Below the pieces are notes generated by a model. It saw nothing but the letters and a program-made list of their open reading frames with translations. It ran no database searches and was not told where the DNA came from. DNA of 45,291 nucleotides from Chloroflexota bacterium (GTDB taxonomy: Bacteria > Chloroflexota > JAJPGV01), in assembly GCA_021325635.1 (NCBI GenBank), contig JAJPGV010000042.1:1-45291 (forward strand), given 5' to 3'. The stretch's first letter is position 1. Every line of letters begins with the position of its first letter. Below are positions 8,479-45,213 of the stretch, in pieces. Both the position numbers and the translations under genes were made by a program.

Positions 8479-9009
8479 ATAAGCAAAGCCCCCTCAATCA
8501 ACGACAAGATCCGTGCGCATCAAGTGGCAGTTATCGATCAAACCGGCGCCTCCCTTGGCGTCCTGGCCCTTCGTGAGGCCCTCGATCTGGCCTCGTCCCG
8601 ACAGCTAGACCTCGTTGAGGTCAACCCCACTGCTGATCCACCCGTTTGCAAGCTCCTGGACTTTGGCCGTTTTCAGTTCGAGTACACCAAGAAGCAGCGG
8701 GAGGCCAAGAAGAGTCAGAAGAGCTTCACCCTGAAGGAAGTGCGTTTCCGCCCGAGCGTGGGTGGGCACGACATCGAGACCAAGGTCAAGCTCATCAAGC
8801 GATTCCTTGACGAAGGCGACAAGGTGAAGGTGGTGGTGCGTATGCGCGGCCCCGAGCTGGCGCACCCGCAGCGGGCCACCCTCCTCCTCGATGCGCTCGC
8901 CGCGCAGCTGGTTCCACACCCTGTGGAACGGCCTCTCCAAACCGATGCTCGAACCCGGACGATGATCGTTTCCCCGCTCAAGGTGGCTGCTGCCAAGCCC
9001 GTTGGATGA
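8479..9009 (+). CDS. infC: Translation initiation factor IF-3, predicted AUA start
   Basis: IF-3 binds the 30S subunit and rejects wrong start codons and tRNAs. The conserved N-domain opening INDKIRAHQVAVIDQTG lies upstream of the first GTG (8524), so the gene must start earlier. Between the in-frame stop TAG 8413-8415 and 8524 there is no ATG, GTG or TTG. ATA at 8479 sits 5 nt after GAGGAGA and gives a 176-residue protein beginning (M)SKAPSINDKIR. Non-AUG initiation of infC is known from other bacteria (AUU in E. coli) and allows IF-3 to limit its own synthesis. An in-frame ATT at 8416, also behind a good GGAGG, would add 21 residues and is the alternative. The C-domain is divergent (VRMRGPELAHPQRA). 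The usual neighbours rpmI, rplT and thrS are absent. Confidence 0.85.
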   Translation: MSKAPSINDKIRAHQVAVIDQTGASLGVLALREALDLASSRQLDLVEVNPTADPPVCKLLDFGRFQFEYTKKQREAKKSQKSFTLKEVRFRPSVGGHDIETKVKLIKRFLDEGDKVKVVVRMRGPELAHPQRATLLLDALAAQLVPHPVERPLQTDARTRTMIVSPLKVAAAKPVG

Positions 9010-10380: not shown

Positions 10381-11541
10381 CTACACCCCGGCGGTAACCT
10401 CTACTCGGCCGGAGCGGTGCCAGCGCTTGATGGGCTGGCCGTCGGCGAGCTTTTGGAGCTCGCGCAGCCAGAGCTTGCGCATCAGGATCACGACGGCGTC
10501 GGATCGGCCGAGCCGCTCGTGGGTGCGGTCGGCGATGGCGCCCTGGCCGAGCTGCGCTACGTAGTCCTGCACGTTGACGATGAACGTCCGCTCCTCGATG
10601 TCCTCGATGCGCAGATCGCCGGCCAGCACCTTGGGCCCCAGGTTGGCCGCGCTGGCGTTGGCGTCGACACTTGCCAGGCGCGCCGCCCGCTGCTGCCGAT
10701 AGTCCTCGGCGGCTTGGCCGGTGACGTGGGTCAGGGTCATGGTGTAGCTGGCGCAGGTCTCGTCATCCACCGGCACGCGCCACGACAGATGCTCGACCCA
10801 GCCCGAGCCGTTCTCGTTGGGCGAGCCCTTGATGAAGTTGGTGTTCGGCATGTGGAAGTGCGACACTCGCGCCGGGCTGTTGGGCCGCCGCCCGTGCTTG
10901 GTGAAACCGAACTCGGTTTCCTCCGCCCACACCTCGGGTACGGCAATGAGACCGTTCTCGGAGAAGCCCGAGGACCCGTGGACGAAGGCCACGTGCACCT
11001 CGTCCGCCGAGTTCTCCACCCGGTTGAAGAAGTTGCACGGCCAGACGACGACGTCGGCTACTTCGAGCACGCCCTCATCTTCCATTTCGGGGAAGCGCGG
11101 CAATGGTGGTGGGTCACCCTCACCCAGGTAGGCGAAGATGAGGCCCAGGTACTCCTCGGTCGGATAGCTGCGGATGCGGATCTTAGCCGCAAAGGAGGCG
11201 TCCTCGGCCGGCTGCTCCACGCATTGGCCTGTGTCGTCGTACTTCCAACCGTGATAGAAGCAGCGAATGCAGTCGCCCTCGACCCAGCCTGTCGAGAGCT
11301 GGGTGCCGCGATGCGCGCAGCGGAACGCCAGCAGGTGCGGCTTGCCGCTTTCACCTCGATAGAGCGTGAAGTCCTCGCTCATGACACGGATGGGCAGTGC
11401 CCGGCCCGGCTGCAGCTGGCTGGCCACCAGGATCGGATGCCAGAACATGCGCATGTACCGTCCCCCCAACGTCCCGGGCCCGGTATGAACGATGTCCTCC
11501 AGCGTCACCTGGTATTTGCCGCCGCGCTCGTCGGTCTGCAT
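10381..11541 (-). CDS. Rieske non-haem iron oxygenase, large subunit
   Basis: 386 residues. The Rieske [2Fe-2S] motif is intact: Cys75-x-His77 in FRCAHRGTQ and Cys94-x2-His97 in CIRCFYHGW. The mononuclear iron site is NSADEVHVAFVHG, with His183 and His188 in the Hx4H spacing and Asp180 as the likely bridge between centres. The overall plan resembles phthalate 4,5-dioxygenase and vanillate/dicamba O-demethylase oxygenases, which hydroxylate or demethylate aromatic substrates with electrons from a separate reductase. ATG 11541 is chosen over upstream starts because GGAGGAG stands 6 nt before it. It is the last gene of the minus-strand operon that starts at 17169, 98 nt after the diiron protein. 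No reductase is present in the operon. Confidence 0.92.
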   Translation of the reverse strand: MQTDERGGKYQVTLEDIVHTGPGTLGGRYMRMFWHPILVASQLQPGRALPIRVMSEDFTLYRGESGKPHLLAFRCAHRGTQLSTGWVEGDCIRCFYHGWKYDDTGQCVEQPAEDASFAAKIRIRSYPTEEYLGLIFAYLGEGDPPPLPRFPEMEDEGVLEVADVVVWPCNFFNRVENSADEVHVAFVHGSSGFSENGLIAVPEVWAEETEFGFTKHGRRPNSPARVSHFHMPNTNFIKGSPNENGSGWVEHLSWRVPVDDETCASYTMTLTHVTGQAAEDYRQQRAARLASVDANASAANLGPKVLAGDLRIEDIEERTFIVNVQDYVAQLGQGAIADRTHERLGRSDAVVILMRKLWLRELQKLADGQPIKRWHRSGRVEVTAGV

Positions 11542-11639
11542 CAGCTTCTCCTCCGCTCCTTGCGACGGGCAGACTAGCACGAAACGTCGTAGCAGCTCAA
11601 AGGGTGAATCGACGCCGCGGACGATGGCAGGCCTCGCGG

Positions 11640-12350
11640 CTACCCGCTCTCGACGTTTCGCAGGCCCAGCCCCAGCGCGCCGCGGAAAGCCCGGTCGATG
11701 ATGAGCGAGTCCCTGACGCCGCGCATCACGGCAGCCTCGTCCTCGGGCTCGCGAACGTAGCCTTCGACCACGCGCGAAAGCAGGTCCGCGTGTGACACGT
11801 CGGCCTGGACGTGCGTGGACTGGTTGATGAGCTGCTCGGCTGGCAGTCCGGCCTCTTCGATCAGCTTCTTCCGGATACGCTGGGCGAGCCCTCCGCCGCG
11901 GATGACCGCGCTCGAGTTGCGAATCTCCAGCACGCACGAGGCGGCCACCGCTTCGAGCCAGGGACGGTCCTTGGCCAGCGATCGCCAGCTCCAGAAGGCC
12001 GCCACTGCGCCTGGCAGCAGCTCCCCCCGCTCGATCTCATCCGCCGTCAAGCCCAGCACTCGCGCTTCCCTGGTGGCCAGCGTGAAATGGTCGATGCCCA
12101 CGCGTGGGTCGCACACCAGCTCTTCGGACTCGTGCTCCCAGATCAGGCGCTTCACGCCGAGCGGCGCGCTGCCCTGCACGTAGCCCCAGCAGTCGCGGCG
12201 GTTGCAGACGTAGTGGGCCATCTGGATGGCGAACAGCCGGGCGCGCGGCAGCGTGAAGGGTGTAGACAGCAGCAGCTCGAACTCCGGCGTTTGGAACTGC
12301 TGGTTCGCCAGCTGGTGGATGCCCGCTATCAGGCTGCTGGGGGAAGTCAG
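11640..12350 (-). CDS. Haem-oxygenase-like diiron oxidase / iron-containing redox enzyme (TenA/PqqC fold), probable CTG start
   Basis: The first ATG (12221) would cut off clearly coding sequence: the frame upstream reads SLIAGIHQLANQQFQTPEF and PFTLPRARLFAIQ, typical for the first helices of this fold. No ATG, GTG or TTG occurs in that frame, but a CTG at 12350-12348 overlaps the TGA of the upstream lipoprotein gene (CTGA), with GAGG 9 nt before it; this gives 236 residues, a normal family length. Candidate iron ligands are Glu74/Glu77, His88, Glu142 and the HxxxDxxH of THVQADVSHAD (His180, Asp184, His187). Members of this superfamily carry out oxidative C-C or C-N chemistry. The position between a binding protein and a Rieske oxygenase suggests catabolism. 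TenA or PqqC function is less likely given the HxxxDxxH set. Confidence 0.75.
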   Translation of the reverse strand: MTSPSSLIAGIHQLANQQFQTPEFELLLSTPFTLPRARLFAIQMAHYVCNRRDCWGYVQGSAPLGVKRLIWEHESEELVCDPRVGIDHFTLATREARVLGLTADEIERGELLPGAVAAFWSWRSLAKDRPWLEAVAASCVLEIRNSSAVIRGGGLAQRIRKKLIEEAGLPAEQLINQSTHVQADVSHADLLSRVVEGYVREPEDEAAVMRGVRDSLIIDRAFRGALGLGLRNVESG

Positions 12351-13501
12351 CTCTTGGTGCCTCGCATGATGGCTACGAACATACGCGTCAGCCGATCCAT
12401 CTTGTCCACGCCGTTGCGCTGATTGAAGGCGACTGTCAGGTCATGGAAGGTCACGCCCGGCACCTGCTTGTCGATGAACGGCGCGAACTTCGAGCCGTGC
12501 ACGGACGGATGGTCGGCGTAGGTGTTGGCGAACAGGACGTCCTGCCCCTCCCGGCTCATGACGTGGTCGAGGAACAGCTTGGCCGCGTTGGGATGCGCGG
12601 AGTTCTTGGGGATGCACATGCAACGGAACTCGCGCATGGGCACGTCGGCGGGAATGACGTGTCCCAGGGGCTGGCCCAGCTCCTGGCGGCGGAACACGTC
12701 GGCCCCGGCTCCGTCCACCGAGAAGATGTCGAACTCGCCGGTGAGCACCCGCTCGATCTCTCCCGACCGCAGCAGGCCGGCCACGGAGCTGGCGAACTGG
12801 CGCACGAAGTCGACCGTTCGCTGCTCACCCCAGATCTCATCGCTGGCGATCTCGGCGTAGGTGCTGGCATCGACGTGCCCGGCCATGCGGCCCTTGTACT
12901 TGGGATTGAGCAGATCCTGCAGCGACTTGGGCACGTCAGCGGGCGCGACCTTGTTGCTGTTGTAGCTGATCCCGGGCACGTCAGCGGTGACGGGCACAGT
13001 GAGGTCGGTCGCTTCGAGACTGTCGGGCTTCTGCAGGTGCGTGGCGAAGCTGGGCCAGTCGACGGATTGCACCACCTCCTGGTTGACCATGGTCGTGGTT
13101 GCCCTGGCCGAGCCGAAGTACACGTCGCTCGATGCCGGCCGCCCGGCGGCAACTTCCTGCACGATGCGCGCCGCCATATCGGACATGGATGGCCCCGGCG
13201 TGAACTGCACGTTCAGCTTCAGGCCGTAGTTGCGGTTGATGCTCTCCGCCCAGGACTGCACGCTGCGGCCGCCGCCGCCGGAGGACTCGCCCCAGCTGAG
13301 GTTGAGCTCGCCCTCTTTGCGAGCCCCGTCGATAATCGCGTCGAGGTTCGGGGATCGGGACCCGGCTGGGGCCGAGCTGATCTGCGGTGACGCTTTCCCA
13401 CATCCCGCCAGGCTGCTGGCGACCAATGCGCCGGTCCCGCCGATGGCGGCTAGGCGCAAAAACGAACGGCGGTTCATACCGTCGAACCTGTGAGCGATCA
13501 T
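12347..13501 (-). CDS. Iron(III)-type (family 1) solute-binding lipoprotein with twin-arginine signal
   Basis: 384 residues from ATG 13501, with GGAGG 6-7 nt upstream. The signal is of the Tat type (MNRRSFLRLAAIGGTG) and ends in a lipobox, SLAGC, so a folded, lipid-anchored protein is expected. The mature part (LDAIIDGARKEGELNLSWGE, PADVPKSLQDLLNPKYKGRM, VPMREFRCMCIPKNSAHPNA) follows the AfuA/FbpA-like class that also binds phosphonates, polyamines and organic acids. It sits inside an oxygenase operon without a permease, so its transporter must be encoded elsewhere. Its stop overlaps the putative CTG start of the next gene by 4 nt. Confidence 0.85.
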   Translation of the reverse strand: MIAHRFDGMNRRSFLRLAAIGGTGALVASSLAGCGKASPQISSAPAGSRSPNLDAIIDGARKEGELNLSWGESSGGGGRSVQSWAESINRNYGLKLNVQFTPGPSMSDMAARIVQEVAAGRPASSDVYFGSARATTTMVNQEVVQSVDWPSFATHLQKPDSLEATDLTVPVTADVPGISYNSNKVAPADVPKSLQDLLNPKYKGRMAGHVDASTYAEIASDEIWGEQRTVDFVRQFASSVAGLLRSGEIERVLTGEFDIFSVDGAGADVFRRQELGQPLGHVIPADVPMREFRCMCIPKNSAHPNAAKLFLDHVMSREGQDVLFANTYADHPSVHGSKFAPFIDKQVPGVTFHDLTVAFNQRNGVDKMDRLTRMFVAIMRGTKS

Positions 13502-13551: not shown

Positions 13552-14784
13552 TTAAGCCACAGTGACGAAGCGGTGGGGTCGTTGGAAGAAGCGCTCCACG
13601 CCGCGCTCGGTCAGCGCCACGGTGCCGCCGAACTGGAACTCTCGCTTGGGGCCTTCGGTGGTGTGCACTACCGGCTTCCATACCCAGGCGTTGCCCTGCT
13701 CCATGCGCAGGTTGGCGAGCTTGGCGTTCTCCGACCGGCCGGTGATGAGCGGTCCGTCGTCGCCCATGCCGCGTCCGTGCAGGGTGATCTCGGCTTTGAA
13801 ACCGGGCATCCTGCAGCTGCCGCGAACGAAGTCAACGAGCTCCAGGTACGTCATGCCGGCCTTCATGAAGCTCAAGCCGGCTTCGAACACTTCGCGCTGC
13901 AGATCGACCAGTCGCTGCCACTCGTCCAACGTGGACCCCACCAGGATCGGCTGAACTTCCTGGGCGACCATGCCGCCCCAGATGGCGCTGACCTCGTTGC
14001 TGATCAGTGTGCCCGCCTGCAGCCGCCGGCCGATGGGCGGCCCGGTGAAACGGGTGCCGTGGCCATCTGCAGGTCCTGTCTCCAGCGCCCAGCCGTGAGC
14101 CGTCCAGTCGGTGCGGGCAACGCAATAGTGCTCGCTGCCCAGCTCCGTCATCCGTCCGCTAACCCGTCCGTACAGCACGGCTTCATCGACGCCTGTGCCC
14201 GCCGTCCGAACCATCTCGGCGATGCCCTCCTCGGCGATAGCCACGGCGCGCCGCAGGCAGTCCAGCTCCTCCGGGCTCTTGACGTAACGGGCGAAGCCGA
14301 CGACGTCGGTGCCATCCTCGAAGGAGGCCTTGGGCAGCCGGCTCACGATCTCGGCAAAGGAGTCGTAGTTCAGCACGCCGTCGGCCGCTCTGGCATGCGT
14401 GACCGTTCCCGGCCCCATCCCAACCACGCCGATGCGCGCTCGTTCCATGCCCAGCTCGAGCAGCGCTTCGGCGATCGGCGGACCCCAGCGGGGGCGGTCG
14501 CCGCGGCGCATCGAGCGTACTTCGGCTATCCAGGCGTTGCCTGTGCCCCGGTCGTCCATCACTACCGGTGGGCGGCCATCCGCCGGTAGGATGAAGCAGG
14601 CGTTCTCGATCTGCGTGAGATAGCGGCTGTCGATACGGTTGCCTTTCGGCACCAGGACGCAGTCGAGGCCGGCTCTGGCCGCGTTCTCCCGGACGGCCCG
14701 CCAGCGGCGGTCCCGCTCTTCGAGCGAATAGCCGCGCCAGCCGCTGTCTGCAGGTGTTTCCAATGGTCTCTCCTGAGCGATCAT
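13552..14784 (-). CDS. M24 (pita-bread fold) creatinase/aminopeptidase-P-like protein
   Basis: 410 residues, paralogous to the protein at 9089-10300 (shared LEERDRRWRAVRE and HGRGMGDDGPLITG). The metal-binding positions are even more degraded: NEVSAIWGGMVAQEVQP replaces the DxG...D pair, and the final Glu segment reads FGGTVALTERG. It is therefore probably not a dinuclear-metal peptidase; a creatinase-like metal-free hydrolase or a non-catalytic role are both possible. ATG 14784 has no clear ribosome binding site, whereas an in-frame TTG at 14763 is preceded by AGGAG, so the true start may be 7 codons later. It lies in the middle of the operon from 17169, 25 nt after the tandem VOC gene. Confidence 0.75.
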   Translation of the reverse strand: MIAQERPLETPADSGWRGYSLEERDRRWRAVRENAARAGLDCVLVPKGNRIDSRYLTQIENACFILPADGRPPVVMDDRGTGNAWIAEVRSMRRGDRPRWGPPIAEALLELGMERARIGVVGMGPGTVTHARAADGVLNYDSFAEIVSRLPKASFEDGTDVVGFARYVKSPEELDCLRRAVAIAEEGIAEMVRTAGTGVDEAVLYGRVSGRMTELGSEHYCVARTDWTAHGWALETGPADGHGTRFTGPPIGRRLQAGTLISNEVSAIWGGMVAQEVQPILVGSTLDEWQRLVDLQREVFEAGLSFMKAGMTYLELVDFVRGSCRMPGFKAEITLHGRGMGDDGPLITGRSENAKLANLRMEQGNAWVWKPVVHTTEGPKREFQFGGTVALTERGVERFFQRPHRFVTVA

Positions 14785-14809: not shown

Positions 14810-15763
14810 TCAGCCCCGCGAGCAGAGCACCTCGGCGAAGTTGCCGTCGGGATCCCGCAGATAGACGCTGTCTCCCTGACGTTCGTGCGCGATGGGGGTG
14901 GCGTCCAGGCCGGCGGCCACGACGTCAGCGGCCTGGCGCGCGGCGAGGATCAAGCGCGGTGTGCCCTGAATCAGCTCCTCGGGCGGCTGCTGCCGCACCT
15001 TCGTGGCGCTGACCAGAACAATCCTGGTCGGCCCGTAGGCGATGAACAGCTGGCCGTTGGGCCTAGGGACCCGGAGTCGCCCTTCGGCGCCACCGGACTG
15101 CACGCTGTGCCTGGACGGCCGCAGCTGACCGGTTGCCGGGTCGGCCACCAGGAAGTCGCGGTAGTGCGGGTTGTCGCGCCGCGTCCACGGGGCGCAGGGA
15201 TCGTCGCCGGCTGCCCAGCGCTTGGCCTCCTGGAGGTCAGCGGAGCGCCAGCCATGATAGTAGTCCACCTGCCCGCCAAGCGCGTTGACGTACACGTACT
15301 CGCAGTAGTCGAAGTGATGGATCTCGATGGCTGCGTGGTCGATGAGCAGGTCCGTGTTCGCCGAGGCAATGAGCTGCACGCGGTTACCGCTGGGGTCGAG
15401 GACGTAAGGTCCTACCGAACGTTCGCTCGGATGGTCCTCCCGCCACCAGTCCACGGCATGGCCCGCGGTCGACAGCTCCTCGACCAGAGGCCCGAGACGG
15501 TCGGGCTCGATGGGGATTGCGCAGTGGTGCCCGCCGTCGCTGAACGTCCGCGGTGAGCCGCGGCGCACGAGATCGAGGTGCTGCGATCCCAGGCGATACG
15601 TGAGCGTGCCGCCCTCGCGCTGCCAGCGACCGCCGCGGCCGGCCAGGATGCGGTCATAGAAGGCGCGAGCGGTGTCGAGATTCGAGACTTCGACGGCCAA
15701 TCCCGCAAGCAGGCCGGCGGCAATGCGGCTTCGGGGGCTGGCCAGCGGCTCGGCAACCGTCAT
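14810..15763 (-). CDS. Tandem VOC-domain protein (glyoxalase/extradiol-dioxygenase superfamily)
   Basis: 317 residues made of two VOC units. The first (about 15-135) runs from AGLAVEVSNLDTARAFYDRIL to VLDPSGNRVQLIAS; the second (about 140-317) from HAAIEIHHFDYCEYVYVNAL to YLRDPDGNFAEVLCSRG. Two-domain VOC proteins include type I extradiol dioxygenases, which use Fe(II) bound by His, His, Glu, usually in the C-terminal unit. In the second unit HH and the closing Glu are present, while the first unit lacks an obvious first His. The central segment, rich in charged residues, is unlike classical catechol 2,3-dioxygenases, so the reaction is uncertain. ATG 15763 has GGAG 8 nt upstream. It is cotranscribed with two other VOC genes. 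Confidence 0.75.
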   Translation of the reverse strand: MTVAEPLASPRSRIAAGLLAGLAVEVSNLDTARAFYDRILAGRGGRWQREGGTLTYRLGSQHLDLVRRGSPRTFSDGGHHCAIPIEPDRLGPLVEELSTAGHAVDWWREDHPSERSVGPYVLDPSGNRVQLIASANTDLLIDHAAIEIHHFDYCEYVYVNALGGQVDYYHGWRSADLQEAKRWAAGDDPCAPWTRRDNPHYRDFLVADPATGQLRPSRHSVQSGGAEGRLRVPRPNGQLFIAYGPTRIVLVSATKVRQQPPEELIQGTPRLILAARQAADVVAAGLDATPIAHERQGDSVYLRDPDGNFAEVLCSRG

Positions 15764-15807: not shown

Positions 15808-16275
15808 TCAGCCCTGGCTTACCGGCACGGGCGCGTACTGGATGCCGGCATCCCGGCGCCAGCACACCTCGAAGTAGTTGCCTCCGGCGTCTCGGAAATA
15901 GATCGACTCGCCCAACGGGCCGCGCTCGGGATGGACCACCGGGCCCTCGAACGGCACGCCGCGCTCGGTCAGCCGCTGCTGAATCTCGCCGAATCGCTCG
16001 CGCGAGACCGAGAAGGCGTGACGCACGTCGCCGTCGATACCGCCGCGGATTCGCCCGTCGTCGAACTTCGGCTTGCCGCTGCGGTCGGGGAAGATGACGA
16101 ATACGTAGTCGCCAATCACGCCGCACGGATGCGGGTCACCGCCGCGATTGCCCTCGTAGCTGCGCGAGCAGGTCTCCATGCGGGCGCCGCCCAGCACCTC
16201 CTCGTAGAACAGCTCGATGGCGCGCGAGTCTGGCCCCTCGATGCCGCTGTGGCTGATGCTTTCGACTTCTGCCAT
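15808..16275 (-). CDS. Single-domain VOC metalloprotein
   Basis: 155 residues with the babbab repeat of the vicinal oxygen chelate fold. The likely metal triad is complete: His9 (SISHSGIEG), His86 (DVRHAFSV) and Glu136 (GGNYFEVCW). Proteins of this size include glyoxalase I, fosfomycin-resistance thiol transferases and small ring-cleaving dioxygenases; nothing visible selects among them. GAGGAG precedes ATG 16275 at good spacing. The gene is 12 nt downstream of the VOC-Rieske gene and 44 nt upstream of the tandem VOC gene, so an oxygenation or ring-opening step in the same pathway is the natural reading. Confidence 0.78.
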   Translation of the reverse strand: MAEVESISHSGIEGPDSRAIELFYEEVLGGARMETCSRSYEGNRGGDPHPCGVIGDYVFVIFPDRSGKPKFDDGRIRGGIDGDVRHAFSVSRERFGEIQQRLTERGVPFEGPVVHPERGPLGESIYFRDAGGNYFEVCWRRDAGIQYAPVPVSQG

Positions 16276-16287
16276 GCGCTGCTCCTC

Positions 16288-17169
16288 TCAGGCCACGGCC
16301 TGGGCCGGGTCGCCCGAGGGCGGTACGGCGGCCTGGCCTGGCTCATAGGCGCTGCGCTCGATGACTTGGCTGGTGTCCACCAGCACGTGTCCCTCATTCG
16401 AGAACGTCACGGGATGAAGTCGTAATGGCCCGCCGGCGCGGTTGCCGGGGTATGGTGACGGCTCGCCGCGGCGGTCGTAGGTCGCGTAGTGGTAGGGGCA
16501 GTAGAAGTGCCAGTGTGCCTTCTGGTACACGACGATGCCATTCATGTGGGTGCACCAGCGGTTCAGCGCCAGGAATCCTTCCCGCAGCCGGACGAGATAG
16601 AAGTTCCCCTGCTTGAAGGGCTTGACGTCGCCGCTCTTGTAACGCTCAGCGGGACCGCAGTCGACCACCCCGGCATCCGAGGGCTGGTACTCGTGACACT
16701 CGGGCCCGTAGGTCTGGATTTGGAAACGATGGCCGTCAGGGTCCATGAGATCGATGCTGTAGTTGCCCAGCGCGCGATGGCCCTCGTGCGTATCCGAGAT
16801 GATCATGCCCATACCCTGCAGCCGCTCGTAGGCCCTGCGGTAGGCGTTGGGCGTCATCAGAAAGGCCTGGTGCCGGCTGTTGCGTGGCGGACGGTCAAAG
16901 CTCTTGCTCTCGACCAGAATGACCATCTGGCCGGTATTGGTTTGCAGCACGCTGTGGGGGTTGGGCTCGGCGGTCAGGTCGCGTCCCAGCAGGTCGAGGC
17001 CTACTACGTCCCGGTACCAGGCTTCGCTGACGTCCAGCTTGGTAACTCCCACCACCAGGTGGCTGAAGCGCTCCACCACCAGCCCTTTGCCGGTTTCTTC
17101 GGGGCGGCTGCCGTGGCCGCCGTAGCGTGGCAGCTCGTCGGTTTCGCGGGGCAGGATCTGTGTCTCCAT
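16288..17169 (-). CDS. Fusion of a VOC domain and a C-terminal Rieske [2Fe-2S] domain
   Basis: 293 residues from ATG 17169 (AGGGA site 6 nt upstream); an upstream in-frame ATG at 17289 would overlap the promoter. Residues about 30-155 are a VOC unit (VERFSHLVVGVTKLDVSEAW ... DLMDPDGHRFQIQTYG) with His37 and His100, but Gln where the third ligand Glu is normal. Residues about 180-270 are a Rieske domain: Cys206-x-His208 (RWCTHMNG) and Cys224-x2-His227 (FYCPYHYATYD), followed by the usual GGPLRLHPV strand. The fusion brings an electron-transfer cluster next to a possible oxygen-handling site in one chain. I do not know a characterised enzyme of this layout. It is the first gene of a seven-gene operon that ends with a Rieske oxygenase. 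Confidence 0.85.
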   Translation of the reverse strand: METQILPRETDELPRYGGHGSRPEETGKGLVVERFSHLVVGVTKLDVSEAWYRDVVGLDLLGRDLTAEPNPHSVLQTNTGQMVILVESKSFDRPPRNSRHQAFLMTPNAYRRAYERLQGMGMIISDTHEGHRALGNYSIDLMDPDGHRFQIQTYGPECHEYQPSDAGVVDCGPAERYKSGDVKPFKQGNFYLVRLREGFLALNRWCTHMNGIVVYQKAHWHFYCPYHYATYDRRGEPSPYPGNRAGGPLRLHPVTFSNEGHVLVDTSQVIERSAYEPGQAAVPPSGDPAQAVA

Positions 17170-18642: not shown

Positions 18643-19377
18643 ATGAGGAGCCTGGGCGCCATCCTTCTATCCGGAGGACTCGATTCGACCACGGTCGCGG
18701 CGGCCGCCGTTGGCGAAGGCTATGAGCTCTCGGCGATCACTGTGCACTACGGACAGAAGCACGATCGCGAGATCGAGGCCGCGCGCCGCGTCGCCGAAGC
18801 GCTTGGCCTGCGCCAGCAGATCGTGGACGTGAGCTTCTTTCGGGAGCTGGCCTGGTACTCGGCGCTCACCAATCCGGAACGTTTCGGGCTGCCGCGGGAT
18901 CGCCCGCCGGAGGCCATGTCACACGACGTGCCGATTACCTACGTCCCGCTGCGCAACACCTTCTTCGTCACCATGGCGGCCGCCTTCTTGGAGAGCGCCT
19001 GCCTGTCGGCGATCGAGCTGGACGGCTGCGCGCCAGGCGATCTGCGGGCCAGCATCTTCGTCGCCGCCAACGCCGTCGACTACAGCGGCTACCCCGACTG
19101 CCGTCCGGAGTTCTACCAGGCCGTCGCCGAAGCGCTGCGCCTGGGGAGCAAGCTGGGCACGCAGTACGGCGTGGCCTTCGAGGTGCGGACGCCGCTGATC
19201 GAGCTGAGTAAGGCCGACATCGTGCGCTTGGCGATCGAGGTGAACGCGCCGCTGCGGCACACCTGGAGCTGCTACCAGGGTGGCGACGCTCCATGCGGCC
19301 GCTGTGACAGCTGTCTGCTGCGGGCCAAGGGCTTTGCCGAGGCTGGTCTGCCGGACCCCGCGCTCGCGGTTTCGTGA
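18643..19377 (+). CDS. queC: 7-cyano-7-deazaguanine synthase QueC
   Basis: 244 residues. QueC converts 7-carboxy-7-deazaguanine to preQ0 using ATP and ammonia (EC 6.3.4.20), a step in queuosine synthesis. The N-terminal PP-loop LLSGGLDSTT and the C-terminal zinc site CYQGGDAPCGRCDSC (four Cys) are both intact; VHYGQKHDREIEAA and PLRNTFF are further family blocks. ATG 18643 gives a normal N-terminus directly at the PP-loop strand; GAGGGG is about 11 nt upstream. The stop overlaps the queE start by 4 nt (GTGA), so the two are translationally coupled. queD, queF and tgt are not in the window. Confidence 0.95.
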   Translation: MRSLGAILLSGGLDSTTVAAAAVGEGYELSAITVHYGQKHDREIEAARRVAEALGLRQQIVDVSFFRELAWYSALTNPERFGLPRDRPPEAMSHDVPITYVPLRNTFFVTMAAAFLESACLSAIELDGCAPGDLRASIFVAANAVDYSGYPDCRPEFYQAVAEALRLGSKLGTQYGVAFEVRTPLIELSKADIVRLAIEVNAPLRHTWSCYQGGDAPCGRCDSCLLRAKGFAEAGLPDPALAVS

Positions 19378-20087
19378 CGCTGCTGCACCTGAGCCGGCTG
19401 CCATCGGGCGAGCCGGAGATCTTCGCGTCGGTGCAGGGCGAGGGCATCACCGTTGGCCTCCCCAGCGCATTCGTGCGGCTGGCTCACTGCAACCTGCGCT
19501 GCTCCTGGTGCGACACCAAGTACACCTGGGAGTGGTCCAGCTACGACCCGCGCCAGGAGATCGTCAAGCTCTCGCCGGCGGCCGCCGCGGACCTCGCGCT
19601 GGCGCTCGATGTCGTGAACGTCGTCGTCAGCGGCGGCGAGCCGCTGTTGCAGCAGCGGCCGCTGGCCGACCTGCTGGTGCGCCTCAAGGCCGCGGAGCGT
19701 CGCATCGAGATCGAGACCAATGGCACCATCGCGCCCGATCCGTCGCTGGCTTCGCTGGTCGATCAGTGGAACGTGTCCCCCAAGCTCGCATCGTCGGGTA
19801 ACGCGGCCCATCGTCGCGAGCGCATGGGCCCGCTGGCCTGGTTCTCGGCCGCTTCCAACGCCCAGTTCAAGTTCGTCGCTGGGTCGGCAGACGATCTGCC
19901 CGAGGTCGGCCTCCTCGCCGCTCGCTACGGCGTAGACCCCTCGCGTATTGTCATCACTCCTGAAGCCACGGATCCCGAGACGCTGCGGCAGCGCTCGCTC
20001 GACCTGGCGCCGGCCTGCATTGCGAAGGGTTATCGACTCGGGACGCGCCTCCACGTCGTGCTCTGGGGCTCAGCCCGCGGCCGGTAG
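19374..20087 (+). CDS. queE: 7-carboxy-7-deazaguanine synthase QueE (radical SAM)
   Basis: 237 residues. QueE rearranges 6-carboxytetrahydropterin to 7-carboxy-7-deazaguanine (EC 4.3.99.3), the step before QueC. The radical-SAM cluster motif CNLRCSWCDTKY (Cys39, Cys43, Cys46) is complete, preceded by IFASVQGEGITVGLPSAFVR as is standard in the family; VVSGGEPLLQ is the SAM-binding GGEP motif. It starts with GTG 19374 inside the queC stop. The product order (QueE then QueC) is reversed on the DNA, as is common. Nothing unusual is seen in the sequence. Confidence 0.95.
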   Translation: MTLLHLSRLPSGEPEIFASVQGEGITVGLPSAFVRLAHCNLRCSWCDTKYTWEWSSYDPRQEIVKLSPAAAADLALALDVVNVVVSGGEPLLQQRPLADLLVRLKAAERRIEIETNGTIAPDPSLASLVDQWNVSPKLASSGNAAHRRERMGPLAWFSAASNAQFKFVAGSADDLPEVGLLAARYGVDPSRIVITPEATDPETLRQRSLDLAPACIAKGYRLGTRLHVVLWGSARGR

Positions 20088-21181: not shown

Positions 21182-22336
21182 ATGGCACTAGACCTGGTGC
21201 AGCAGGCGACCTCCAAGAATCTAGAGAACCTGACCAGCATCGACGCGTACGAAGATTGGCAGCGCAGCGAGGGTGTTCCCTCGGTCACCGGCTTCTACAT
21301 CGAAGACCTGAAGACGATTGAGGTTCACCCCTGGCCGCGGAAGGGTGGCAAAGGCGTGTTCGTGAACCTGGAGGGAACCGGTGGGGTCAACGATGCGCAC
21401 GTGGTCGAAATCGCTCCAGGGAAGGAGTCGGAGCCCGAGCGGCATCTCTACGAGGAGATGGTCTACGTCCTCAGCGGGCGCGGATCGACCAGCGTGTGGT
21501 ACGAGCCCAACAACAAGCAGACCTTCGAGTGGGCCGCGGGCAGCCTGTTCGCCATCCCGCTCAACGCCTGGTACCAGCACTTCAACGGCAGTGGCTTGGA
21601 GGCGGCCCGATACGTTTCGGTGACCAACGCCCCGACCATCATCCGGCTGTTCCACAGCCACGAGTTCGTCTTCGAGAATCCCTTCACCTTCAAGGATCGC
21701 TTCGCCGGCAAGGAGGGCTACTTCAGCGGGGAAGGCCAGCTTTTCCGCCGCCACGAGCGCCACGTGTGGCAGGCCAACTTCGTGTCCAACGTGCACACCA
21801 TGTACCTGCCCGAGCGCCCCGACCGGGGAGGTGGCGGCAGCAACATCCACATCTCGCTGGCCGAGAACAGCATGGGCGCTCACATCTCGCAGTTCCAGCC
21901 CGGCATGTACAAGAAGGGCCATCGCCATGGGCCTGGCGCCCACGTGATCATCCTTGATGGGGTGGGCTATTCCATGCTGTGGCGCGAGGAGGACGAGGAC
22001 AAGAAGAAGTGCGACTGGCAGCCAGGCAGCGTGGTCGTGCCACCGGATAACTGGTTTCACCAGCACTTCAACACCGGTCCCGATCCGGCGCGCTACCTGG
22101 CGCTGCGGATGGGCGGCTCGCGCTTCCGGCAGCCCAACTCCGTCGTGCGTGGCGAGGGCTCCGGTGTGAGCTTGAAGCTCGGCGGCTGGCAAATCGAGTA
22201 CGAGGACGAGGATCCGATGGTCCATCAGCTGTACGAATCGGAAGTGCGGCGGCACGGCGCCAAGTGCCTGATGAAGGGCCTGGTGGCTGGCTGCACCGGC
22301 GAGGCCGGGGTCATGCAAGCCGGTGGAGACGACTAG
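21182..22336 (+). CDS. Bicupin, probable metal-dependent oxygenase or related enzyme
   Basis: 384 residues with two cupin barrels. Cupin 1: EPERHLYEEMVYVLSGRGSTSV and SLFAIPLNAWYQHFNGSG. Cupin 2: MYKKGHRHGPGAHVIILDG and SVVVPPDNWFHQHFNTG, with the HxH and late His typical of a metal centre. It is paralogous to the bicupin at 44082-45176, including the NAWxQxFNGSG and xHQHFN segments, and more distantly related to gentisate-type dioxygenases. ATG 21182 has AGAGGGA 7 nt upstream. The sequence does not allow a substrate call; ring-cleavage or a related oxidation is an inference from the neighbourhood. Confidence 0.8.
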   Translation: MALDLVQQATSKNLENLTSIDAYEDWQRSEGVPSVTGFYIEDLKTIEVHPWPRKGGKGVFVNLEGTGGVNDAHVVEIAPGKESEPERHLYEEMVYVLSGRGSTSVWYEPNNKQTFEWAAGSLFAIPLNAWYQHFNGSGLEAARYVSVTNAPTIIRLFHSHEFVFENPFTFKDRFAGKEGYFSGEGQLFRRHERHVWQANFVSNVHTMYLPERPDRGGGGSNIHISLAENSMGAHISQFQPGMYKKGHRHGPGAHVIILDGVGYSMLWREEDEDKKKCDWQPGSVVVPPDNWFHQHFNTGPDPARYLALRMGGSRFRQPNSVVRGEGSGVSLKLGGWQIEYEDEDPMVHQLYESEVRRHGAKCLMKGLVAGCTGEAGVMQAGGDD

Positions 22337-24162: not shown

Positions 24163-25974
24163 TTAATTTGCGCCCAGCTGCCGCTCGGCCGCCGTTGGGC
24201 GACCGCCCGACACGCCGGTACGTGCGAGCAAGAAGGTGAGAAGCGTCGATCCCAGCACCAGGGGCACAGCCAGAGCCGTGGCCATGCCAATGTCGGCATA
24301 CTGCGTCCAGATCAGCCACAGCAGCGCGCCCAGCGTGCCGTTCGAAGTGACGAACAGCATGATCGAGATGGTCGTATCCCGCATGGCGTGCAAGCCGGCC
24401 CACAGCCAGGCGCGGGTGAAGGAGGGCCAGATCAGCGGGACCACGACGCGGGACAGCAGCTGCCCGAAGCCGGCGCCCGAGAGCTGCGCCGCCTCCTCCA
24501 GCTCGCGGTGGAGCTGCAGCAGCGCTGCATCCATCACCCGCGTGGCGAACGGCAGATAGCGCGTCACCAGGGCGATGGCGATGATCAGGCTGGTGCCGTA
24601 AATCGGCAGCGGCAGCGACACGTACAGGAAGGTCAGCGCCAGGCCGACCACGATCGAGGGGATGGCGGCTATGACGAAGGTCAGCCTGTCGGGCAGCTTG
24701 CTGCCGCGATAGGTGGAGCGCACCGAGTTCCAGGCAACCAGGGCCGCGAGGCCGGCCGTCAGACAGGCGGTGAGCACCATGACCAGGGCGCTGTTCCGCA
24801 GGGTGTCACCTAGACTGGGCAGCCGCAGCAGATGGGCATAGTTGGTGAGGGACACCCGCTTCACCGCCTCCAGCGAGGGTACCGCGTAGAACGGCAGCAG
24901 GCTGGTCCAAACGAGGATGAGGAACGGCAGCAGGAAGGTCAGCGCGAAGTAGGCCGCCAGCGCTGCCGCGGCCACATTCCGCCAGCGGCCCAGGCGCAGG
25001 GGCTGCGGACGGTAGCCCTTCCCCGTGACCACCGCGAATTGCTGCGCTCCGCTCACGGATCGGCTGTAGAGGGTGATGAAGGCCACGGCCATCCCTATCG
25101 ACACCATCGCGTATCCGCTGGCCAGGCCATAGTCGGGAATTCCCCCGGTGGCAGGATGGGCGGCCAGGTAGATCGTGGTGCTGAACATGAAGATGCCGTG
25201 GCCCATGCCCAGCAGAGCCGGCACGTCGAACATCTCGCTCACCACCATGAAGTAGTAGATGGCTGCCGCCAGCAAGCCCGGTCGCAGCAGCGGCACGGTG
25301 ATGCGCTTGAACGTCACCAGCCAGCTTGCGCCGGATAATCGCCCGGCTTCCTCGAGCGACGGGTCCATGCGGTTGAACGTGCCCGAGATCATCATGTACA
25401 GCGGCGCCACGATGCTCGTGCCGGTGACCAGGATCATCCCTGGGATGGAATAGATGTCGAACGGGCCGGGATCGGAGAAGCCGAAGAGCTGTCTCGCCGC
25501 GATGTTCAGCAGGCCGTTGTTGGCGTTGGCCAGCATCACCCAGGCCATGCCCTGCACCAGCCCCGGCACCGCCAGCGAGCTGATCATGAACACCGTCATC
25601 AGGCGCCGTCCCGGCATGTCGCTGCGCTCGAGCAGCCAGCCGAAGATGGTGGCCAGGGTCATGCCGATCAGCAGCGAGCCAACGGCGTACCACAGCGTGT
25701 TCAGCAGCAGGCGGTAGGTCAGACCGGAGGAGAACACGGTCACGTAGTTGGCCAGGGTGAAGCCGGTGGCTTCGAACGGCAGCTTGCTGCCGGTGGCCCT
25801 GAAGCTGCTGAACACCAGCATGGCCAGCGGCACCAGAACCAGGTACACCACGGCCAGCCCGGAGCCCAGTCCGAGCGCCTTCTGGACGCCCGTAGCGGGG
25901 TCCAGAAGCTCGGGCCAGATGCGGCGCTGAATCCCGCCCAGGCCGAAGACGGCCGGGCGGGCAACGACTTTCAT
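24163..25974 (-). CDS. Double-length ABC transporter permease (iron(III)/thiamine type, two fused halves)
   Basis: 603 residues with about twelve membrane segments in two halves. Each half has the cytoplasmic EAA loop that docks the ATPase: EEAGRLSGASWLVTFKRITV in the first and EEAAQLSGAGFGQLLSRVVV in the second. This is the plan of FbpB/ThiP-like permeases, in which one chain replaces a permease dimer. ATG 25974 overlaps the TGA of the ETF gene by 4 nt (ATGA), so translation is coupled. The binding lipoprotein is two genes upstream; no ATPase gene is present in the operon or window. The cargo is unknown. Confidence 0.92.
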   Translation of the reverse strand: MKVVARPAVFGLGGIQRRIWPELLDPATGVQKALGLGSGLAVVYLVLVPLAMLVFSSFRATGSKLPFEATGFTLANYVTVFSSGLTYRLLLNTLWYAVGSLLIGMTLATIFGWLLERSDMPGRRLMTVFMISSLAVPGLVQGMAWVMLANANNGLLNIAARQLFGFSDPGPFDIYSIPGMILVTGTSIVAPLYMMISGTFNRMDPSLEEAGRLSGASWLVTFKRITVPLLRPGLLAAAIYYFMVVSEMFDVPALLGMGHGIFMFSTTIYLAAHPATGGIPDYGLASGYAMVSIGMAVAFITLYSRSVSGAQQFAVVTGKGYRPQPLRLGRWRNVAAAALAAYFALTFLLPFLILVWTSLLPFYAVPSLEAVKRVSLTNYAHLLRLPSLGDTLRNSALVMVLTACLTAGLAALVAWNSVRSTYRGSKLPDRLTFVIAAIPSIVVGLALTFLYVSLPLPIYGTSLIIAIALVTRYLPFATRVMDAALLQLHRELEEAAQLSGAGFGQLLSRVVVPLIWPSFTRAWLWAGLHAMRDTTISIMLFVTSNGTLGALLWLIWTQYADIGMATALAVPLVLGSTLLTFLLARTGVSGGRPTAAERQLGAN

Positions 25975-27836
25975 GCCGCGATGGTACGGCTTGCCGGAAC
26001 GAGCGCAGAGGTGACTCCGGCTCGTTTCAGAGTATCGACCAGCGCTGGGACGAGGGCACGATAGTCGCCTACCAGCCCGTAATCGGCGTGCTGAAAGATT
26101 GGGGCAGTGGGGTCGTTGTTCATGGCGACGACGGTGCCGGCCCGGGTGATCCCAACCGTGTGATAGATGGCGCCGTGGACCGCTACGGCCACGTACAGGG
26201 CGGGTGACACCGGCTTGCCGGTGAGGCCTATCTGCAGCTGCCGCGGCAGCCAGCCGGCGTCGGTCACGCGTCTGGTGCCGCCGACTTTGGCGCCCAGCGC
26301 CTCCGCTAGCTGCTTGACCAGCAACAGCTCCTCGGGCCGCTGCAGGCCGAACCCGGCGCAGACGATACGGTCGGCGCTGTCCAGGTCGCCCTGGTCGTCC
26401 ATGATGTGCTGGCTGTCGACCAGCCGGGTCCTGCTTTGCGGCAGACCGTTGAGGCTCATGCGCACGATCTCAGCCCGGCGCGTGTGGTCGGACTCGAAGG
26501 GCGCCAGCATGCCTGGCCGCACAGTAGCTACGTGCGGCACCGTGCGGGACAGGATCGAGGCCACGATCAACCCGCCGAAGGCCGGCTTCAGCGGCGCCAT
26601 CTGGCCGTCCGCGTCGATCTCGATGGCCACCGCGTCGGCGGTGACGCCCAGGCCCAGCTGGGCCGCTGCTCGCGGCGTGAAATCGCGGCCGAACGAAGTC
26701 GCGGGGGCCAGTACCGCCCATGGCTGGTAGCTCTCGATGGCCTGCCGCAGCGCCCAGGCGTACCGTTCGCCGCTGTAGTCGCCGAGCTCGGGGCTGTCAG
26801 CCAGGTAGACCGTCTCGGCGCCGTCGGCGGCGAGGGCGGCGGCTTGCGGCTCCACGCCCGATCCGATAGCCAGCGCCGAGACGGTGCCGCGTACCTGTCC
26901 CGCTAGGCGCACAGCTTCGGCCAGCAGCTCGCGCGTCACCAGCCGCGGGTGGCCGCCGGCAAACTCCGCTACGACCATGATCTGCCGGTCAGTGCGAGGG
27001 GAGGTGACGGCCGGCGGTAGGGCTTCGAGCCTGGTTTGCTCACGTGGGGCAAAAGCACCGGCTCGGTTCAGCTCGGCGACCAGCCAGTCACATGCTGCCG
27101 CCGGATCCGAAGCGTCCCGGATGACCGGCTGCCGCTCGATCCGGAAGGGGCGTACGCCGGCCACGACCGTTGGCGATCCAGCCAAGCCGACGGCGCCGGC
27201 GGCCAGCCCAAGGTCCTGTAGCGAAACGCGCTCTACGGGGAGGTGGCTGACTTGGGCGAGCATGTCGTCTCGCGGATGCGGAGCCGGTTTGATGACACGC
27301 TCGGCCACGGTGATGACGGCCGGCAGCTCGAGCTCAAAGGTATCCGAGCCCGCGTCGGTCTCTCTCGTGACCATGAGACAGCCGTCCTTCATTTCCAGCG
27401 CAGTCACGGCAGTCACGTGCGGCAGGTCCAGCAGCGCTGCCACCTCGGCCCCCACCTGGCCGGTCTCGGCATCGATGCTGTACTGGCCGCAGAGGACCAG
27501 GTCGAACCCTCGGGGGGCGATGAAGGCAGCCAAAGCTCGGGCCGTGGCCAGGGTGTCCGCGCCGGCCAGCACGGCGTCACACAGGTGCACGGCCCTGTCG
27601 GCGCCCACGGACAGGGCTCCTCGCAGCGCCTCCTCGGCTTGCGGCGGCCCCATGGTGATAGCCACCGCTTGGCCGCCGCCGTCCTGGTCGCGCAGCGTAG
27701 TCGCCAGGGCCAGCGTGCGCCGATCGAAGGGATTGAGGAAGCTGGACACGCCATCGCGGATGAGGGTCATTCGCTCGTGGTCGAAACGCAAATCCTCGAC
27801 GTGAGGAACCTGCTTGATGCAGGCGGCGATCTTCAA
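25971..27836 (-). CDS. Single-chain electron transfer flavoprotein: EtfB fused to EtfA
   Basis: 621 residues. Residues 1-265 are the beta subunit: MKIAACIKQVP, VGADRAVHLCD and the AMP-binding segment GQYSIDAETGQVGAEVAALL. After a linker of about 20 residues, 285-615 are the alpha subunit: QIMVVAEFAGG, and the FAD site TRRVTDAGWLP, QIGLTGKPVSPALYVA, HGAIYH, NNDPTAPIFQHADYGLVGD. ETFs normally are heterodimers that pass electrons from flavin dehydrogenases or ferredoxin to a quinone or dehydrogenase partner. Both cofactor sites look complete, although the canonical GISGA is AVHGA. The TTG start overlaps the lipoprotein stop (TTGA) and the stop overlaps the permease start (ATGA), so the gene is embedded between two transporter genes. 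Fusion and location are both unusual. Confidence 0.93.
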   Translation of the reverse strand: MKIAACIKQVPHVEDLRFDHERMTLIRDGVSSFLNPFDRRTLALATTLRDQDGGGQAVAITMGPPQAEEALRGALSVGADRAVHLCDAVLAGADTLATARALAAFIAPRGFDLVLCGQYSIDAETGQVGAEVAALLDLPHVTAVTALEMKDGCLMVTRETDAGSDTFELELPAVITVAERVIKPAPHPRDDMLAQVSHLPVERVSLQDLGLAAGAVGLAGSPTVVAGVRPFRIERQPVIRDASDPAAACDWLVAELNRAGAFAPREQTRLEALPPAVTSPRTDRQIMVVAEFAGGHPRLVTRELLAEAVRLAGQVRGTVSALAIGSGVEPQAAALAADGAETVYLADSPELGDYSGERYAWALRQAIESYQPWAVLAPATSFGRDFTPRAAAQLGLGVTADAVAIEIDADGQMAPLKPAFGGLIVASILSRTVPHVATVRPGMLAPFESDHTRRAEIVRMSLNGLPQSRTRLVDSQHIMDDQGDLDSADRIVCAGFGLQRPEELLLVKQLAEALGAKVGGTRRVTDAGWLPRQLQIGLTGKPVSPALYVAVAVHGAIYHTVGITRAGTVVAMNNDPTAPIFQHADYGLVGDYRALVPALVDTLKRAGVTSALVPASRTIAA

Positions 27837-29049: not shown

Positions 29050-30105
29050 TCAGGCTGCTTTGGGGAACAGCACCAGCGCTTTGTCGGAGTTGAACAGGTA
29101 GGTTTCGGAGTAGGCGAGCACCTGAGGCGTCCGGCCCTCCATGGCGCCTGCCAGGCAGATCCAGTTCAGCATCTCGTGCTGTCCCGCGTCCTGCAACTCC
29201 TCGGGCGTGAGCTCGCGCCAGCTCCTCAACCGGCCCCCTTGCAGATCGGCCAGTCGCCGCCGGTCCGTTTCCACGTCCGGGTAAATGAAGCCGTGCTTCT
29301 CGGTAAGCGAGCCGTGCGACCAGATCGATGAGCCGATGATCGCCACCCGCCAGGGGCTTTCGGCGAAGATCTGTTCGACGCGCCGGCCGAGGTCATAACA
29401 GCGCCAGGGCAGGGGCGAAGGAATGGGGCGAATGGGCTGGCCGCCGGCCTTGGGCTGTTCGGGCCGCGGAATGCGCAGGTGGCTGCCGTAGCAGTTCACG
29501 TGGAAGGGCACAATTGGATAGTCGAAGCCCCGGCGGTCGTAGTCGAGATACAGGACCGTGCGCGTGAAGGCATGGCTGAGCGTGTCGGCATGGCTCATCT
29601 CGTACGAGCAAGCCACGTCGAACCCGCTGCGAATGAGCTCGTGCGCCAGGTGGTTGGCGGCCTCGCGATGCCCAGGCAGCGTCACGATCGTGTCCTGCGG
29701 CGCGTTCCACACGTTTTCGCTCGCCCCCAGTCCGGCGCTGGCCTTGAACGGGGCCAGCTTGGCCTCGTCCAGGGCGAAGACGCAGAACGGCGCCAGCAGG
29801 TCGACCTTGAAGTTCTCGTACTGGTCGTCGCCCCAGATGAGCAGGAGGTCGGGCTTGAAGGCGTCCAGGGCGGCTCTGGCCTCGCGGAAGGCCTGGACCT
29901 GCTTGGCGCGATGGGCGGCGGCCGCCTTCGCGCCGTCGTCGTCGCCCCACTCCGCGCGCATGCCTTCGGGCCAGTTGCCCGGATCCCGAAAGCGCTCCGG
30001 CGTGCGCTCGCTCTTCAGCGTGCGTCGCAGCAGGTTGGCCATGTCCGCGTCGGTGAACTGAAGATGCGGAGCATGTGTGCAGCCGATGCCTAGTGTGTCC
30101 GCCAT
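29050..30105 (-). CDS. LigB-superfamily (class III extradiol dioxygenase-like) protein
   Basis: 351 residues. The family cleaves catechol-type rings with Fe(II) held by two His and one Glu. The first His is in IGCTHAPHL (His11). The strand that usually ends in NDH reads LLLIWGDDQYENF (92-99), placing Gln95 where the second His is expected. Later blocks are DYPIVPFHVNCYG and IIGSSIWSHGSLTEKH. The paralogue at 37435-38505 shares all of this, including the GDDQ, so the substitution is inherited rather than an error. Either another residue completes the metal site or the reaction differs. ATG 30105 has GGAG 8 nt upstream. It follows RidA by 41 nt. Confidence 0.82.
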   Translation of the reverse strand: MADTLGIGCTHAPHLQFTDADMANLLRRTLKSERTPERFRDPGNWPEGMRAEWGDDDGAKAAAAHRAKQVQAFREARAALDAFKPDLLLIWGDDQYENFKVDLLAPFCVFALDEAKLAPFKASAGLGASENVWNAPQDTIVTLPGHREAANHLAHELIRSGFDVACSYEMSHADTLSHAFTRTVLYLDYDRRGFDYPIVPFHVNCYGSHLRIPRPEQPKAGGQPIRPIPSPLPWRCYDLGRRVEQIFAESPWRVAIIGSSIWSHGSLTEKHGFIYPDVETDRRRLADLQGGRLRSWRELTPEELQDAGQHEMLNWICLAGAMEGRTPQVLAYSETYLFNSDKALVLFPKAA

Positions 30106-39877: not shown

Positions 39878-39892
39878 GGCGGTTCGTCCCTG

Positions 39893-40210
39893 CTGTCTGA
39901 ATTCGTTCACGTAGCTCGAACGTACGAGCTGTCTGACGGGGAGATGACGCTGGTCAGCGCACATGGCGAGGAGCTGCTGCTGGCCCGCCGCGGCGATGAG
40001 TTCTTCGTCCTGGACAGCGTCTGCAGCCATGCCCTGGGGTACCTGGACCAGGGGACGCTGGTCGGCTGTGAGATCGAGTGTCCGCTTCACGATGGTCGCT
40101 TCGATCTCCGGACCGGTCGAGCCACCCGCGATCCGGCTGTGGACCCCATCCGCGCCTACCAGGTCCGCGTCGAAGGCACCGCCATCCTCGTCGGCCCAGC
40201 CAAATCCTAG
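39893..40210 (+). CDS. Rieske-type [2Fe-2S] ferredoxin, probable CTG start
   Basis: The first ATG (39944) would remove the conserved opening strand. The frame upstream reads SEFVHVARTYELSDGE, exactly like the N-terminus of bacterial Rieske ferredoxins, and is open back to the stop of the oxygenase gene (TGA 39875-39877) with no ATG, GTG or TTG. CTG 39893, or CTG 39890 seven nt behind AGGCGG, are the likely starts; from 39893 the protein has 105 residues, a standard length. Cluster ligands are Cys44-x-His46 (SVCSHALG) and Cys63-x2-His66 (ECPLHDGRFD). It would pass electrons to the oxygenase. It is in the same frame as the oxygenase, only the TGA and five codons away, so UGA readthrough to a fusion cannot be excluded. 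Confidence 0.88.
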   Translation: MSEFVHVARTYELSDGEMTLVSAHGEELLLARRGDEFFVLDSVCSHALGYLDQGTLVGCEIECPLHDGRFDLRTGRATRDPAVDPIRAYQVRVEGTAILVGPAKS

Positions 40211-45176: not shown

Positions 45177-45213
45177 CGTCTGCACCTGCCATGAAAATCG
45201 TTGAATGAGGATG

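Follow-up and report, generated by a model that had tools for sequence, protein, structure and literature searches.

The stretch of DNA analyzed in this study (the window) is 45,291 nucleotides long and comes from a Chloroflexota bacterium. A gene for a protein of 293 amino acids, here called VR, lies on the minus strand at 16288–17169. Its ATG start at 17169 was backed by aligned homologues, and the plus strand over the same positions was a non-coding reading. The N-terminal half of VR matched the glyoxalase family PF00903 at residues 34–151 (36.5 bits, cut-off 20.6), and the C-terminal half matched the Rieske family PF00355 at residues 189–243 (27.2 bits, cut-off 20.3). The vicinal oxygen chelate (VOC) domain therefore occupies 16717–17070 of the minus strand, as also indicated by conservation and fold. 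The Rieske [2Fe-2S] domain, delimited by Pfam, fold, and conservation, covers residues 172–268 (16366–16656, minus strand). A sequence-only reading of this DNA had described a VOC and a Rieske domain in one 293-residue chain; this description held, both Pfam domains scoring above their cut-offs and all the named residues being in place.

Putative metal ligands of the VOC domain were assigned by conservation as His37 (17061–17059), His100 (16872–16870), and Gln150 (16722–16720), all on the minus strand. VR itself thus lacks a His-His-Glu (HHE) triad. The Rieske ligands, assigned in the same way, were Cys206 (16554–16552), His208 (16548–16546), Cys224 (16500–16498), and His227 (16491–16489), also on the minus strand. 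The Rieske domain of the window VR is without extra disulphide cysteines, and the chain terminates shortly past the Rieske fold. VR has no strong hydrophobic stretch and looks soluble from its sequence. The three-dimensional structure of VR was predicted with AlphaFold2 (pLDDT 60.5, pTM 0.42); both folds were recognizable, and the mutual orientation of the two domains in this model was unreliable. The VOC half resembled Fos and glyoxalase folds, with 3ghj as the best VOC match (Z 11.3, 115 aligned residues, 3.5 Å), and together with the PF00903 score these matches indicated the paired beta-alpha-beta-beta-beta fold of the glyoxalase type. The Rieske half of the model matched the solved Rieske protein 9rk4 (Z 12.9, 106 aligned residues, 2.4 Å), and its CxH-(n)-CxxH ligands lay within this fold.

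VR is the first of three genes in a row. It is followed by a single-module VOC protein of 155 amino acids, SV (15808–16275, minus strand), which starts 12 bases past the VR stop codon, and then by a tandem VOC protein of 317 amino acids, TV (14810–15763, minus strand). SV was recognized by Pfam, by its solved relatives in profile comparison, which include ChaP and 3ey7, and by linkage; it carries the HHE triad that VR lacks (His9, His86, and Glu136). TV was recognized by its model, fold, and co-occurrence with VR; its conserved residues are His80, Gln130, and His143. The fusion chain of the sequence-only reading thus stands, and its treatment of VR as a single-chain unit does not, since VR belongs to a three-gene operon with SV and TV.

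The next gene of the putative operon encodes a hydrolase of the M24 metallopeptidase fold (13552–14784, minus strand, Pfam). An M24 gene whose product is 53% identical was also found beside the L068 cassette, the closest relative of the window VR. Further along the minus strand, Pfam identified an extracellular solute-binding protein of the SBP_bac_6 family (12347–13501), a haem-oxygenase-like iron-containing redox enzyme, PF14518 (11640–12221), and a Rieske oxygenase alpha subunit (10381–11580). Of 19 loci, the window alone had the PF14518 gene, whose product may be a separate oxidase. Relatives of the Rieske oxygenase were present in 4 of the 18 other loci, and solute-binding proteins of the SBP_bac_5 family in 15 of the 19.

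The setting of the window is catabolic, with Rieske oxygenases, two LigB-type dioxygenases, cupins, amidohydrolases, and transporters. The relatives of LigB-type ring-opening dioxygenases lie at 29050–30105 (minus strand) and 37435–38505 (plus strand), the latter with genes for a Rieske oxygenase and a small Rieske ferredoxin after it (38528–40210). Three proteins of the Cupin_2 family are encoded at 242–1249 and 21182–22336 (plus strand) and at 44082–45185 (minus strand), with two cupin stretches in each of the first two; relatives of the one at 21182–22336 occur near three other VR cassettes (L061, L062, and L070). Housekeeping-type genes are found amid this region, namely that for translation factor IF-3 (in 8524–9009) and those for QueC and an adjoining radical SAM protein (18643–20087, plus strand). 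A fused electron-transfer flavoprotein of 621 amino acids, beta plus alpha (25971–27836, minus strand; PF01012 twice and PF00766), lies near the catabolic genes and may be an electron source of an unconventional kind. Searches for reductase domains of the BphA4 type (PF14759) and the FNR type (PF00970) gave nothing in six genomes (G000, G055, G184, G037, G006, and G046), where G000 is the genome of the window; in 14 control genomes the same searches found PF14759 in 3 and PF00970 in 8. The window alone encodes two Rieske oxygenases, yet the six genomes gave no match to either reductase family.

Occurrence and conservation of the VOC-Rieske family

The domain-architecture search proposed in the sequence-only reading was carried out across genomes, and the fusion recurred: 29 places were found in four Chloroflexota genomes, the halves of one broken copy being counted once. 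There were 3 places in G000 (the window, C47, and C49), 7 in G055, 15 in G184, and 4 in G037. The family was searched for in two ways. A collection of 84,980 species was scanned with six exact short peptide patterns, which yielded one locus, a Chloroflexi metagenome-assembled contig (L001) with three copies; L001 and G055 are very probably one assembly, as the positions are the same. A VR profile built from six sequences was compared with 400 genomes from the phylum. Matches at E ≤ 0.001 occurred in 298 of them, and full-length fusions were present in four, the own genome and G055, G184, and G037; among the matches listed outside these four, only one half of the protein was covered. G055, G184, and G037 are three of the five sampled genomes of one other family, and VR was found in 3 of the 29 genomes of their class. 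Outside the phylum, which was covered by the peptide patterns alone, VR may occur as well.

Other origins and identities of the gene were considered. An assembly artefact was ruled out by the 29 places in four genomes. A mobile or viral gene was rejected, as there was no relative in viral contigs, no phage match, no PHROG, and a single match among 72,556 plasmids, to the Rieske domain only. VR is not a Rieske non-haem iron oxygenase alpha subunit, since no C-terminal catalytic Pfam domain was found at E ≤ 0.01. The FosA/FosB metallothiol transferases are the nearest sequence family of the VOC half, and a Fos-type resistance protein was rejected because the best NCBIfam match scored 26.2 bits against a curated cut-off of 250. 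Fos proteins have an HHE triad, in contrast to the His-His-Gln (HHQ) set and the fused Rieske domain of VR. The sequence-only reading had allowed that VR might belong to a known, characterized family; no description of such a VOC-Rieske fusion turned up in the open-access literature searched.

Residue conservation was counted in 28 VRs, the copy at L073:3897–5408 being left out because of its broken frame. In that copy the Rieske half is out of frame with the VOC half, through sequencing error or decay. His100 and all four Rieske ligands were kept in 28 of 28 copies, in agreement with the complete Rieske motif noted earlier, and His37 was kept in 26. Position 150 was Gln in 23, Glu in 4, and Arg in 1, so Gln, which had been remarked on as standing where Glu is usual, is the norm of the family, with Glu as an occasional variant.

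The VR tree separated subfamily 1 (19 rows, including the window) from subfamily 2 (9 rows), both supported at 100/100. Several clades mixed copies from two or three genomes, which indicates that many paralogues predate the divergence of those genomes. The subfamily-1 VRs have the simple CxH/CxxH motif: none of the 19 carries the additional cysteine pair seen in bc1-type proteins (CxHxxC, CxCH), which 7 of the 9 subfamily-2 VRs have. The Ser of bc1-type proteins was replaced by Ala in 18 of the 19 subfamily-1 VRs. Subfamily-2 VRs were located in L063 (9045–13304), where three are clustered, and in L045, L054, L056–L058, L060, L074, L075, and L078, usually with a diverged small VOC partner of their own.

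Linkage of the three genes was examined in the subfamily-1 cassettes. SV was directly downstream of VR in 19 of 20 cassettes, the sole exception being L062 in the own genome, and TV was downstream in all 20, with some TVs truncated where the contig stops. In L077, L048, and L053, SV and TV shared one reading frame. In the relatives' class (29 genomes), SV occurred at 17 places, all in the three VR genomes and each adjoining one of the 17 subfamily-1 VRs there. TV matches at E ≤ 1e-15 were confined to the four VR genomes among 301 searched. The linkage, the SV-TV fusions, and the conserved ligands suggest that VR, SV, and TV act together and that the cluster and the metal sites both matter.

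Metal sites of SV and TV and origin of the Rieske half

In subfamily-1 cassettes, His9 of SV was kept in 19 of 19, His86 in 14 of 19, and Glu136 in 18 of 18. The HHE triad was kept in 14 of 19, counting one in which Glu136 lies beyond the cut end. A link between Glu150 in VR and loss of His86 in SV (3/5 against 1/13, Fisher p = 0.044) was considered and rejected, because the tree showed one independent pair and one VR change. A Gln/Glu link between VR and TV was likewise rejected, being seen in one cassette only.

The TVs of L067, L048, and L053 were too short and were left out of the TV counts. His80 and His143 were each kept in 17 of 17 and Gln130 in 16 of 17, with one Glu. Position 21 was not kept (Gly in 14, otherwise His, Gln, or Ser), position 311 was Glu in 9 and Gln in 6 of 15, and no His occurred at 268–272 in any of 15. 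The C-terminal module of TV therefore has His143 and Glu or Gln at 311 and lacks the further His of a catechol-type HHE site. Neither site of TV is complete inside one module, and His143, His80, and Gln130 make a complete set across modules, which points to one inter-module site. Tandem enzymes such as maize glyoxalase I have their sites between modules.

The TV model (pLDDT 70.3, pTM 0.70) fitted maize glyoxalase I along the whole chain (Z 20.4–20.7, 234–238 aligned residues, 3.1–3.4 Å). Again over the whole chain, it also matched the putative dioxygenase 3oaj of B. subtilis (Z 19.6) and the 2,6-dichloro-p-hydroquinone 1,2-dioxygenase 4huz (Z 19.3). The whole-chain fits to maize glyoxalase I, 4huz, and GLOD4 ranged from Z 18.8 to 20.7. 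TV differs from these tandem enzymes in its H/H/Q set across modules and its degenerate second site, and identity is 12–16%; 4huz uses the opposite pair of positions. Foldseek comparison with catechol-type dioxygenases, in which TV was represented by one predicted model only, gave a TM of about 0.3 and an rmsd of 18–20 Å. The model implies that TV would hold one inter-module HHQ site, with the second site incomplete.

The best sequence matches of the VR Rieske half were bc-type proteins; its closest kin were respiratory Rieske proteins of Chloroflexota and the anammox protein 9rk4. The nearest relatives in the phylum had a hydrophobic Tat-like leader and the motifs CTHLGC and CPCH. From sequence, we read this leader as probably Tat. 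These proteins have disulphide cysteines as well as the leader, in contrast to VR, which looks soluble and lacks such cysteines in subfamily 1. VR also shared the Rieske fold with ferredoxins and oxygenases of the carbazole, biphenyl, and toluene dioxygenase systems (Z 10–11), whose oxygenase site is of another fold. In a tree of 55 Rieske domains, ring-hydroxylase domains of the window type were set apart (100/100) and VR was left with the respiratory-type ones, although the 19 Rieske-only rows had been picked by similarity to VR, which favours grouping with VR. Of the 26 Rieske-only loci (L011–L036), 7 did not fit the domain-cutting motif and were left out, and the single window ferredoxin formed a long branch whose placement is unsure. 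In our reading, a respiratory-type domain may have lost its anchor and become fused to a VOC domain, the disulphide being lost as well in subfamily 1.

Possible roles of the three-gene system

The sequence-only reading had offered two roles for VR, a reductively driven VOC oxygenase or an electron donor whose VOC part binds a substrate or partner. Both survive, qualified by the operon: with a tightly linked HHE protein, SV, and with TV, it may be a partner of VR that holds the oxygenase site. Its premise that VOC dioxygenases need no external electrons was too strong. ChaP, a VOC oxidase of chartreusin biosynthesis, is described as working with flavin-activated oxygen (PMC12281474), and plant-type ferredoxins, encoded within the pathway operon, are described as rescuing extradiol enzymes by re-reducing the iron of catechol 2,3-dioxygenase (PMC2590616). 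ChaP is a single-module VOC protein related to SV by profile and to the VR VOC domain by fold (Z 9.9), and it differs in receiving electrons via flavin, whereas VR has a fused Rieske domain. ChaP is not known to have a tandem VOC partner.

The explanation we prefer, tentatively and as a leading candidate rather than an expected outcome, is that VR, SV, and TV are the three components of one VOC enzyme in which the fused Rieske domain feeds electrons to a VOC metal centre. The VOC half of VR would pair with another VOC module, either its own copy or SV. The Rieske half would deliver electrons one at a time to a mononuclear iron, or another metal, at a VOC site, for which the HHE triad of SV is the likeliest candidate. 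Oxygen would thereby be activated on a substrate taken up from outside, probably an aromatic or quinonoid compound. The part of TV, with its single H/H/Q site between modules, would be to bind the substrate or product or to process it, and the paralogous cassettes may be tuned to different substrates. Several observations count against this explanation. In 23 of 28 copies, the third residue of the VR triad is Gln in place of a carboxylate; the second His of SV is missing in 5 of 19, and the L062 cassette is without SV altogether. The PF14759 and PF00970 searches of six genomes were negative, the domain orientation in the VR model is unreliable, and in the tree the Rieske half falls among respiratory-type proteins, whose usual electron donor is a quinol.

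The next best explanation, which we regard as rather unlikely, is that SV or TV cleaves rings as a conventional VOC dioxygenase, which takes up no electrons in each turnover, and that VR re-reduces its iron once this has become ferric and inactive. Ferredoxins are established reactivators of extradiol dioxygenases, and in XylT-type systems a [2Fe-2S] protein is encoded alongside a VOC dioxygenase (PMC2590616), as VR would be at this locus. The HHE triad in 14 of 19 SVs and the hydroquinone dioxygenase among the fold neighbours of TV agree with such a role. The known reactivators, however, are small, stand-alone, plant-type ferredoxins; VR has the Rieske motif and domain instead, is fused to a VOC domain, and occurs at about 1:1 with SV. 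Reactivation also leaves the VOC half of VR without a clear job except docking. Electrons might instead flow in reverse, with a VOC site oxidizing the substrate and the Rieske cluster accepting electrons, or the cluster might act as a redox switch. This is quite unlikely. It would suit the grouping of the Rieske half with Tat-anchored respiratory-type proteins, apart from ring-hydroxylase domains (100/100), the cysteine pair kept in 7 of 9 subfamily-2 VRs, and the negative search for conventional ferredoxin reductases in six genomes. The cysteine pair and the Ser/Ala exchange are known to affect the potential of Rieske clusters, and subfamily 1, to which the window VR belongs, is without the pair in 19 of 19 and has Ala for the bc1-type Ser in 18 of 19. 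These features point to a lower potential and speak against reverse flow.

It is improbable that VR serves as the ferredoxin of the neighbouring Rieske oxygenase, its VOC half binding the substrate or channelling the product to SV and TV for the later steps. The oxygenase gene at 10381–11580 is in the same minus-strand gene run, and Rieske ferredoxins bound to carbazole dioxygenase were among the best fold matches of VR (Z up to 11.0). A VOC protein, DnrV, helps a P450 by product binding and is a precedent for a binding role (PMC12979805). Relatives of the Rieske oxygenase, however, were found in at least 5 of 19 loci, which differ in length, whereas SV and TV were near-universal; a separate small Rieske ferredoxin (39944–40210) adjoins the other Rieske oxygenase. 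A non-redox binding or sequestering protein with a mainly structural Rieske domain is very improbable: several drug-binding proteins (TioX, TnmS3, and a bleomycin binder) are among the VOC fold matches, but all 28 copies, divergent as they are, keep the four cluster ligands and His100.

Significance of the VOC-Rieske cassettes

Electron donation to a VOC centre, the preferred reading, leads to a wider proposal that is more tentative still. VR, SV, and TV might represent a multicomponent oxygenase of a new class: a Rieske cluster of respiratory-type origin, fused to a VOC domain, would drive oxygen activation at a metal centre of the VOC fold, with amplification to at least ten paralogous, substrate-specific cassettes in one genome. 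Rieske clusters drive oxygenases of a fold other than VOC. If the proposal is true, joining such a cluster to metal sites of the VOC fold would mean that the problem of electron-driven oxygen chemistry has been solved a second time, independently. As VR, SV, and TV are small and VR looks soluble, the cluster potential, metal content, and reductant dependence are directly testable.

Paralogue expansions in SAR202 Chloroflexi have been linked to the use of recalcitrant organic matter (PMC6946804), and the amplification of VR cassettes in one bacterial group resembles these expansions. Judged by its sequences, the VR-SV-TV set of this rare group of Chloroflexota resembles an electron-driven system for the degradation of organic compounds, one that appears not to have been described.
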